DNA of 34,582 nt from Patescibacteria group bacterium (GTDB lineage Bacteria > Patescibacteriota > Minisyncoccia > UBA6257 > 02-FULL-45-10c), in contig JAGWKK010000005.1 of NCBI GenBank assembly GCA_028865335.1, positions 1 through 34,582 of the forward strand, in the 5' to 3' direction. Made by a program: the position numbers and the translations under genes. Positions 1 to 13,352 of the stretch are shown here, one piece after another (the first letter of the stretch is position 1; every line of letters starts with the position of its first letter). The notes under the pieces are model-generated. The model made no database searches and was not told the DNA's origin. It saw only the letters and a list, made by a program, of their open reading frames with translations.

Positions 1-409
1 CGGCGACACTCTTATATCTCCCTTGAAACAAGGTGCCGTTTCGCTCATATTTCTGATTGAAATATTTGGCATAACCCATATTCAGCTTCCGCATGAATAG
101 CGAAATGCCATTATCCAACTTCGGCCGTAGTAAGAGATGATAATGGTTAGGCATCAGGCAAAAAGCGAGAATTTCCACCAAAAGTTTCCTCGGTTTTCTC
201 TCAGCTCCAATATAAGGACTTGCGAGGTCCTTAGAGTTATTGCGGCCGTTAAAATGATAGGTGACGTTATTGATCGGGTTCTGATCATTGAATTCAAATA
301 AGTCGTGGATAAACCGGAAATAATCACTCTCATCAAGAAAGATCTTCCGTTTGTCCACTCCTCGATTGAGGACGTGATAGGTATTGCCGGTAACGGTTAT
401 TTCGCGCAT
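1..409 (-). CDS. REP-associated / IS200-like Y1 tyrosine transposase, 3' end truncated by window edge
   Basis: My own translation from ATG at 409(-): MREITVTGNTYHVLNRGVDKRKIFLDESDYFRFIHDLFEFNDQNPINNVTYHFNGRNNSKDLASPYIGAERKPRKLLVEILAFCLMPNHYHLLLRPKLDNGISLFMRKLNMGYAKYFNQKYERNGTLFQGRYKSV... Contains the Y1 transposase HUH motif (PNHYHLLL) and the 'YHVLNRG', 'FMRKLNMGYAKYFNQKYERNGTLFQGRYKS' signatures. Absent from the ORF track because no stop lies in the window. Confidence 0.93.
   Translation of the reverse strand, partial: MREITVTGNTYHVLNRGVDKRKIFLDESDYFRFIHDLFEFNDQNPINNVTYHFNGRNNSKDLASPYIGAERKPRKLLVEILAFCLMPNHYHLLLRPKLDNGISLFMRKLNMGYAKYFNQKYERNGTLFQGRYKSVA
213..233. repeat. Inverted copy of the REP-like hairpin inside the transposase CDS
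   Basis: TAAGGACTTGCGAGGTCCTTA is the exact reverse complement of 432-452; 7-bp stem, same 7-nt loop. Confidence 0.85.
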
Positions 410-11339: not shown

Positions 11340-11723
11340 TTAAAGTAGTTTGCGCGCTTTCAATTCGTCGTATAATTTCGTCGTGAGCGTGTCGTGCAAA
11401 GCGTCCAGAATGAACGGACCGTATTTTTTCGCCTCAGTGACGGAGGCGTCGATACCTTTATGGAATGCGACATCCACCAACTCCTCCACTTTCAGGCGGA
11501 CATCCGGCGATTCGGCCTGCAGATAGTTCGGAAGCATCGTAGTGTCATCGGAACCGCTCGGAGCCGGAGCAGGCGCGGCCTGGATATGCGATCCGATCAC
11601 CGACCGGACGATCTCTTTCGGGTGTGTTTCAGCGGCCGATTGTTCCTGGCGCTGTTCATGCACCTCGTGCGAAAGGCGCAGAATGTCTTGTTCGAGTGCC
11701 GCGTCGAAGTTTTGATGGATCAT
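11340..11723 (-). CDS. Hypothetical protein, 127 aa, translationally adjacent to the TraD-like ATPase
   Basis: ORF 3 nt upstream of the ATPase ORF, same strand. Confidence 0.7.
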   Translation of the reverse strand: MIHQNFDAALEQDILRLSHEVHEQRQEQSAAETHPKEIVRSVIGSHIQAAPAPAPSGSDDTTMLPNYLQAESPDVRLKVEELVDVAFHKGIDASVTEAKKYGPFILDALHDTLTTKLYDELKARKLL

Positions 11724-11725
11724 CG

Positions 11726-11734
11726 TGGTATGAT
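11726..11734 (+). promoter_or_regulatory. Extended -10 promoter element TGG-TATGAT
   Basis: TGGTATGAT read directly; same layout as other extended -10 elements in the window. Confidence 0.45.
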
Positions 11735-11743
11735 AAGAATATG

Positions 11744-11875
11744 CCGGGTAGTGAGAATTTGACTGGTTCGCCTGCAGGCGAACGGCATGGATAACATTCC
11801 GCTCCTGGCCGTGATTCTTTTATCTAATCATGAATTATACATTGGTTGTAAAAAGGTCAAATTTCTACTACCCGG
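11744..11875. mobile_element. Candidate 132-bp miniature inverted-repeat element with flanking TATG repeats
   Basis: Terminal IRs CCGGGTAGTGAGAATTTGAC (11744-11763) and the reverse complement of 11856-11875 (CCGGGTAGTAGAAATTTGAC), 17/20 identical. TATG at 11740-11743 and 11876-11879. Perfect 18-nt palindrome GTTCGCCTGCAGGCGAAC at 11766-11783. Confidence 0.55.
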
Positions 11876-11876
11876 T

Positions 11877-13352
11877 ATGACGAAAAAGCAGGTTATTCTC
11901 ACGCTGGTTCTTATAGTAAGTATAGCTTCATTTTTGCGCCTCTACAATTTGATGCCTGCGGATAACCACGGCGCTTTTTCGCCTCCGGGACTCTATCCCG
12001 ACGAGGCCATGAACGGCAATAATGCCGTGGAAGCGTGGGCGAACCATGACTGGAAAGTGTTCTATCCGGAGAACTTCGGCCGGGAGGGGCTTTTCATAAA
12101 TATCCAGAGCTTTTTCGTGGCGGAATTCGGCAATACGCCGGGGGCATTGCGCCTGCCCAGCGCTCTTTTCGGCATCCTGACCGTTCTCGGCATGTATTTC
12201 CTGGCACGAGCCCTGTATCGGCATGAATCATTCGCGCTTTTCGCGTCGTTTCTGCTCGCGGTCAGTTTCTGGCACGTCCTGTTCTCGCGCATAGGTTTCC
12301 GGGCGATCGCCGCGCCGTTCTTTTTGGTCTGGGGCGTCTATTTTCTCATCAGCGCGACCAGGAACCGCCGGTGGCTGATTTCCGCCCTGGTTGGCGGCGT
12401 TCTGTTCGGCCTCGGCTTCTATACGTATATCGCCTACCGGATCACTCCGTTGCTGCTTGCGGCGATCCTGTATTTCCTGTGGCGGAAGACGCCGGCTGCG
12501 GGACGGCGGCAGCTGATGCGGGTATGCGCGGTGTATCTCATCGCGGCATTTGTTGTCGCTTTACCGATCGGACTCTATTTTCTGGGCCACCCGGCTGACT
12601 TCTTCGGCCGCACCACGGGTATTTCCATTTTCCACTCCCCGACTCCGCTGCAGGATCTTGCCTTGAACACGGTGAAGACCGTCGGCATGTTCAATATCGC
12701 CGGCGATTTCAACTGGCGGCAGAATTTTGCGGGACGGCCGGAACTGTTCCTGCCGGTGGGGCTGTTCTTCCTCTGGGGTCTGTATCTGGCGATTCAGAAT
12801 GTAAAGAAACAGAAAACCGCCGCGTTGGGCGACGCGACGGTGCTGAGCTGGTTGGTATTCGCGACTTTGCCGGTCGTGATTTCCGACGAAGGCATTCCGC
12901 ATGCGCTCCGGGCGCTTCTGATGGTCCCGCCGGTATTCCTGCTTGCAGCCCGCGGAGGCATGGATGCCTATGAGCGACTGAAGCGCCTGGTGTCGCCGGT
13001 CTGGAGGTATGTGATCGTCGCCTGTTTCTGCCTGGTCATGATCTTTGAAGTAAGTGCGGTGTATTTTGACGCCTGGGCGCAGAATCCCGCGGTGAAATCC
13101 GCGTTCGATTATCAGGATTACGTTACTGCTCAGCGCATCAATGCCTTGCCGGTTGATCAGATGAAATACGTGATCGTTCCCGGCACCAGCGGCACGATCC
13201 AGCGTGATTATCCGATTTCATTGCAGTCGATCCTTTTCCTGACGGATACGTTCAGTAGGGAAAGCCGTGCGGCGAAGCACATCGAATATCTTTCTCCTGA
13301 CGACGCGAAGAATCTGGTGCCGGCGCCGGGAAGCATGACGATTTCCTTGTAG
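11877..13352 (+). CDS. GT39/PMT-type membrane glycosyltransferase
   Basis: 'GLYPDEAMNGNNAVEAW...FGREGLFINIQSFFVAEFG...ALRLPSALFGILTVLGMYFLARAL', multi-TM. Start set at MTKKQVIL (11877). Confidence 0.85.
   Translation: MTKKQVILTLVLIVSIASFLRLYNLMPADNHGAFSPPGLYPDEAMNGNNAVEAWANHDWKVFYPENFGREGLFINIQSFFVAEFGNTPGALRLPSALFGILTVLGMYFLARALYRHESFALFASFLLAVSFWHVLFSRIGFRAIAAPFFLVWGVYFLISATRNRRWLISALVGGVLFGLGFYTYIAYRITPLLLAAILYFLWRKTPAAGRRQLMRVCAVYLIAAFVVALPIGLYFLGHPADFFGRTTGISIFHSPTPLQDLALNTVKTVGMFNIAGDFNWRQNFAGRPELFLPVGLFFLWGLYLAIQNVKKQKTAALGDATVLSWLVFATLPVVISDEGIPHALRALLMVPPVFLLAARGGMDAYERLKRLVSPVWRYVIVACFCLVMIFEVSAVYFDAWAQNPAVKSAFDYQDYVTAQRINALPVDQMKYVIVPGTSGTIQRDYPISLQSILFLTDTFSRESRAAKHIEYLSPDDAKNLVPAPGSMTISL

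Follow-up and report, generated by a model that had tools for sequence, protein, structure and literature searches.

A miniature inverted-repeat insertion at a glycosyltransferase start codon points to a candidate family of GIY-YIG transposons in Patescibacteria

At the very start codon of a glycosyltransferase gene, the 34,582-nt stretch of DNA analysed here (hereafter the window) carries a short inverted-repeat structure with TATG on both sides. What is this structure, was it inserted, what might have moved it, and how could the gene behind it still be expressed? The window belongs to a CPR genome, which measures 0.86 Mb and is assembled in 61 contigs. Positions 11740-11879 read as TATG, 132 bp and TATG, and the ends of the element are 20-nt inverted repeats, complementary at 17 of 20 positions (Table 1). 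Upon re-reading, the arms, the palindrome, the TATG borders and all coordinates given in an earlier sequence-only reading proved correct, as did its statement that the right TATG supplies the glycosyltransferase ATG (11877). The protein encoded downstream matches Pfam PMT_2/PMT. When the whole window was scanned for 20-nt arms with at most 3 mismatches, 40-400 bp apart and flanked by identical 4-mers, this element was the sole structure of its kind, and the same scan of five shuffled windows found none. As RNA, the element has a predicted fold of -56.8 kcal/mol (z = -6.0). A fragment of a Y1 (RAYT-like) transposase lies at the contig edge, at window 8-184 on the minus strand.

Table 1. Features of the element and its surroundings in the window.
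Feature	Coordinates	Strand	Basis
Divergent neighbour, 127 aa, conserved beside the glycosyltransferase; anchor for the empty-site comparison	11340..11723	-	relatives compared
TGG-TATGAT-AAGAAT, extended -10 promoter dating from before the insertion, when the gene was leaderless	11726..11740	+	direct reading; promoter function inferred
TATG on the left, one of the two copies of the duplicated 4-bp target; holds the ancestral start codon (ATG 11741-11743)	11740..11743	+	direct reading; duplication by family-wide variable matching 4-mers
Left terminal inverted repeat CCGGGTAGTGAGAATTTGAC	11744..11763	+	direct reading; family consensus
Interior, non-coding, no GIY-YIG gene (non-autonomous copy)	11764..11855	+	direct reading
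Palindrome GTTCGCCTGCAGGCGAAC, inside the element interior	11766-11783	+	direct reading
Right terminal inverted repeat GTCAAATTTCTACTACCCGG	11856..11875	+	direct reading; family comparison
Right copy of the duplication TATG; ATG at 11877 is the present start codon	11876..11879	+	direct reading
GT39/PMT-like glycosyltransferase gene, 491 aa, intact; start separated from its promoter	11877..13352	+	reading frame; Pfam

Removal of the element together with one TATG leaves CAT-CG-TGG-TATGAT-AAGAAT-ATGACG, which reproduces the collapsed promoter as it had been written before. Of the three promoters then cited as having the same layout, 27920(-) is an exact parallel (TGG-TATAAT-6 nt-ATG), but 3748(-) has TGG-TATACT at 7 nt, and 2225(-) has TACAAT at 6 nt with no TG extension. 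We then compared the locus with relatives, where an empty site had been predicted. The glycosyltransferase gene and its 127-aa neighbour are divergently paired in about ten family relatives and, wherever the spacing is readable, their start codons are 15-21 nt apart and the element is absent. In the window the two start codons are 153 nt apart, i.e. 17 + 136 nt (the element plus one TATG), and the 17-nt spacer left after removal contains the leaderless extended -10. Because relatives keep the gene pair with a spacer of only 15-21 nt, the element is, as judged from these comparisons, a real insertion. The same spacer in G012 contains a different element, CCCACACATAAC...GTTATGTGTGGG, at the start codon of the neighbour (L171); two element families have struck the start codons on either side of one spacer.

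At least 151 copies with ends of this family were collected, all named hosts being Patescibacteria/CPR. Three belong to this genome (the window copy, C8 and the GIY-YIG-coding copy C28) and more than 100 were found elsewhere. With the empty sites, these further copies support the MITE-like insertion at the start codon that the sequence-only reading had proposed. Among 200 genomes of the order, the pattern matched in 20, up to ten times per genome, although two of these (G081 and G041) are without left arm and look like chance; the reversed-pattern control matched in 0. In a set of 84,980 species, with one genome per species, at least 116 stretches matched, whose named hosts were all CPR groups, a few being labelled just 'bacterium'. 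The pattern used on this set left the flanks unspecified, so that targets were sampled without bias. IMG/VR contained one match to the element, a possible case of viral carriage. The left-arm consensus across 90 start-codon copies is CCAGGTAGTGAAAATTCGAC. Relative to the left arm, the right arm has an offset A.C mismatch and a G.T wobble, kept in nearly all family copies; among the copies collected, TCT is present on the right in 150/151 and GAA or GAG on the left in 148/151.

Exact 4-bp duplications flank 76 of 108 copies. When the left 4-mer is not TATG, both flanks are identical in 27/57 copies, versus a mean of 3.3 and a maximum of 10 after shuffling. Since the duplications vary and yet match, movement resembles transposition, and this demonstrates, at the level of compared genomes, that copies reach new sites and that 4 bp of the target are duplicated in the process. 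Nested copies were found as well, inserted inside the left arm of another copy with AAAA duplicated; at six loci, one copy was repeatedly inserted, in constant orientation, in the same AAAA of the other copy's left arm. By length, the family divides into three classes: 29 copies do not exceed 90 bp, 106 lie between 100 and 160 bp, and 12 reach at least 290 bp. The window element thus shows these features of a MITE: terminal inverted repeats, a target-site duplication, and dispersed copies without coding capacity.

The 12 longest copies, of about 310 bp and including one in this genome, provide a clue to the origin of the others. Each one examined encodes a GIY-YIG nuclease of ~87 aa and no other gene, a feature of the coding relative which was out of reach of the sequence-only reading. 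Encoded proteins match Pfam GIY-YIG (PF01541) above the cut-off (E=9e-17 and 7e-19), with catalytic residues Y17, G19, R27 and E63 conserved at 97-98%. The predicted fold is that of a bare GIY-YIG domain, nearest to UPF0213 and then to Slx1, a branched-DNA nuclease, I-TevI coming far down the list. Same-end copies coding for the protein are present at L002, L035, L086, L150 and L155, and L099 is a relic of such a copy, by internal deletion. Internal deletion of a coding copy is the classical origin of MITEs. At L002, L086, L114, L150 and L155, the GIY-YIG gene start contains CGATTATGTTC, complementary to GAACATAATCG within several of those genes, a possible self-repressing mRNA structure.

Small GIY-YIG genes are present in 150 of the 200 genomes of the order. 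We sampled 102 small GIY-YIG genes, mostly from genomes of the order, and inverted repeats were sought around each. At a score of at least 11.5, repeats bracketed 71/102 genes, compared to 19/300 control ORFs and 1/78 offset flanks; at the stricter score of at least 14, numbers were 58/102 and 0/300 for genes and control ORFs, respectively. The repeats are of at least 8 sequence types, nearly all of which start with CC and end with GG. Bracketed genes are flanked by duplications such as TATG, ATGA and TTGA, exact over 4 bp in 39/71 cases where 13 are expected. Protein identity and repeat identity are correlated (Mantel r=0.63, permutation maximum 0.16). Such co-variation is expected if a nuclease acts on ends of its own, but genes and repeats that are simply inherited together would show it too.

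No clear repeats were found around the remaining 31/102 sampled genes. At least seven repeat-less genes adjoin tRNA-Tyr or tRNA-Ser (class II tRNAs), and in front of several of these tRNA-adjacent genes the 5' half of the tRNA is partially duplicated; this is possibly a second targeting mode. Two other settings were observed. A repeat-bounded element (L266:1-1501) splits what resembles, by eye and with no Rfam match, RNase P RNA (GCGATAG<>AGGAAAGTCGGGAC). Three GIY-YIG elements, each from a different genome, are bordered alike by CCTTTA<>TGCTC/TGCGC; the structure around them is repeated and conserved.

Taken together, we consider it highly probable that the window element is a MITE of a very small mobile-element family of Patescibacteria, whose full-length form of ~310 bp consists of two 20-nt repeats and one ~87-aa GIY-YIG gene. 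The nuclease would cut the base of an extruded hairpin or cruciform as well as the target, and the same activity would mobilise full-length and deleted copies alike. A broader proposal, which we hold to be probable though with less assurance, is that of a new class of DNA transposons in Patescibacteria, with the ~87-aa GIY-YIG nuclease as sole mobility enzyme, subfamilies specialised in start codons, in -35 boxes and perhaps in class II tRNA genes, and a host spared by the rebuilt signal and by handling of the hairpin at the RNA level. A role of the GIY-YIG protein in moving its ends would agree with the protein-repeat co-variation. The sampled genes that have no clear repeats weigh against it, as does the relative G010, where MITE copies coexist with a single distant GIY-YIG gene. 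We know of no transposition by a GIY-YIG enzyme, and no description of GIY-YIG transposons was found in the open-licence literature searched. The element class is apparently undescribed; we call it new for want of such a description, and because no mobile-element kind that we can name combines inverted repeats and a target duplication with a GIY-YIG gene as sole gene. The ~310-bp element is possibly the smallest autonomous transposon.

The main alternative is a real mobile element that carries the GIY-YIG gene as a passenger and is moved in trans by a DDE or Y1 (RAYT) transposase whose gene lies elsewhere. Target duplications of 4 bp are typical of DDE elements, a Y1_Tnp fragment is present in the window and Y1_Tnp genes in 5/12 MITE-bearing genomes, and only one, distant GIY-YIG gene (36% identity) accompanies several recent MITE copies in G010, a relative of the same family. 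We nevertheless regard this as unlikely: Y1_Tnp is absent from the other 7/12 genomes, no repeat-bounded element longer than ~390 bp was found within the 2.5 kb searched, and the repeat types all enclose the GIY-YIG gene alone and co-vary with it. A classical IS with a DDE transposase was rejected, only GIY-YIG being found between the ends and nothing longer within the same distance; mobilisation by RAYT, or membership of the REP-RAYT group, was also rejected given the 5/12 carrier genomes.

Which targets do the copies choose? The ATG next to the element is the gene's start codon in 90 of 100 NATG-flanked copies, versus 18% of non-coding TATGs at the same loci. Some of these 100 copies came from searches requiring TATG; in the flank-blind subset, the figure is 63/71 with a minimum of 60 aa. 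There is an orientation bias, the right end facing the gene in 100 copies versus 12. TTGA or TCAA duplications run on as TTGACA in 5/5 cases (background 6.4%) and, with GIY-YIG-coding elements added, a good -10 is present at 15-19 nt for 6/12 TTGA sites, versus 16% of TTGACA generally. This establishes, on simple reading-frame calls around the sampled loci and in genomes that are mostly metagenome bins, that copies cluster strongly at start codons (TATG) and that a smaller number lie in -35 boxes (TTGACA); the preference for start codons was likewise out of reach of the sequence-only reading. One copy is inserted inside a Shine-Dalgarno-like GAGG (L141). Start-codon copies are found at rpoBC, gyrB, dnaA, infB, alaS, serS, pheS, rpsL, rpsT and gatB, and the same copy is kept at pilM in two related genomes. 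At L119:1307-7999 (+), RpoB and RpoC are fused in a single frame, with the element at their shared start codon.

Beyond the insert, the duplicated 4 bp re-create the signal that was hit, and the gene body is therefore left intact. Where a start codon was hit, the ATG is re-formed but comes to lie behind a 20-bp stem. In the window, the insertion would have turned the leaderless glycosyltransferase mRNA into one starting with a hairpin of ~135 nt. Processing of the stem by an RNase III-type enzyme would then leave a near-leaderless AUG, and the gene would stay expressed; alternatively, ribosomes might initiate on the second AUG or reach it by hopping. RNase III is encoded in this genome. RNase III-like processing would be more economical than bypass, since insertions in structured RNAs agree with it as well. 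The leaderless promoter proposed for the collapsed site is plausible: upstream of such insertions, a -10 placed exactly as for a leaderless start is over-represented (20/90 versus 22/327, p=8e-5). By this test a leaderless origin would not be general, since only these 20 of the 90 start-codon copies have a strong -10 at that spacing. The right arm was searched as a source of a Shine-Dalgarno sequence, and no motif was found in family copies. An internal promoter at the right end was rejected, -10-like hexamers being scattered and not fixed in position, and so was an in-frame fusion through the element, copy lengths showing no frame constraint.

In another reading, translation would begin at the first AUG and ribosomes would skip the hairpin to land on its identical counterpart beyond, much as in T4 gene 60, where a 50-nt bypassed insert lies beside a homing endonuclease (PMC5009743). 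The identical ATGs on both sides of the stem and the -10 enrichment would agree with such a bypass. It seems as doubtful to us as a passenger GIY-YIG gene: the frame from the first AUG enters an element whose length is free of frame constraint, most copies are missing a clear leaderless promoter, and insertions at -35 boxes or in reversed orientation need no bypass. Slightly less probable still is a glycosyltransferase gene silenced or strongly weakened by the insertion, which the sequence-only reading had offered as an alternative. A hairpin does stand between promoter and start codon, and the right 60 nt contain neither a Shine-Dalgarno motif nor a conserved internal promoter, but the 491-aa frame is intact, and a general silencing effect is made unlikely by the essential single-copy genes that have the element in this very position, the pilM copy moreover being kept in two related genomes. 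Finally, a conserved cis-regulatory leader RNA, with a 4-bp repeat due to chance, would account for the strong fold, the conserved arms and the mostly 5' location, but is excluded for practical purposes because orthologous sites in relatives are empty, and it is further opposed by unrelated downstream genes, variable matching duplications, both orientations and nested copies; an Rfam search of the element returned no family, the match to frnS being far below the cut-off.

The transposon reading, if correct, has several consequences. Small GIY-YIG genes, found in most genomes of the order, have so far been unexplained; if they are transposons, they bring a new enzyme class among DNA transposons. 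It becomes testable how cells survive when an element separates the promoter of rpoB, gyrB or dnaA from the start codon, a question that bears on leaderless translation in uncultured CPR bacteria. Tiny nucleases acting on short ends would also be of interest to genome engineers.

How does this family compare with known systems? Like MITEs and insertion sequences of the DDE type, it has terminal inverted repeats, a 4-bp duplication and many deleted copies beside few coding ones; unlike them, it has a lone ~87-aa GIY-YIG gene, a full element of ~310 bp, and start-codon and -35 targets. With REP/RAYT hairpin elements it shares short palindromes moved in trans, with imperfect and asymmetric stems, but no tyrosine transposase is tied to its ends and a target duplication is present. 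GIY-YIG homing endonucleases and mobile introns (I-TevI, T4 seg genes) have the same catalytic domain family and a tolerated insertion, whereas here there is no intron, many unrelated genes are hit, inverted repeats are present, and in place of a long conserved target the sites share 4 bp only (plus CA at -35 boxes). The T4 mobA/gene 60 cassette, yeast mitochondrial byps and rRNA intervening sequences are likewise short structured inserts tolerated at the RNA level, but here start codons and promoters are hit, with target duplications. A last comparison is with the GIY-YIG inserts in CPR rRNA, which, according to a 2024 paper (PMC11270868), are neither introns nor spread by homing; its available portion concerns rRNA only and describes no inverted repeats, target duplication or start-codon targeting. 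We infer that they are the same kind of element as the one described here. If the small GIY-YIG genes are transposons, this may account for both the GIY-YIG and the short ORF-less inserts reported in CPR rRNA genes.
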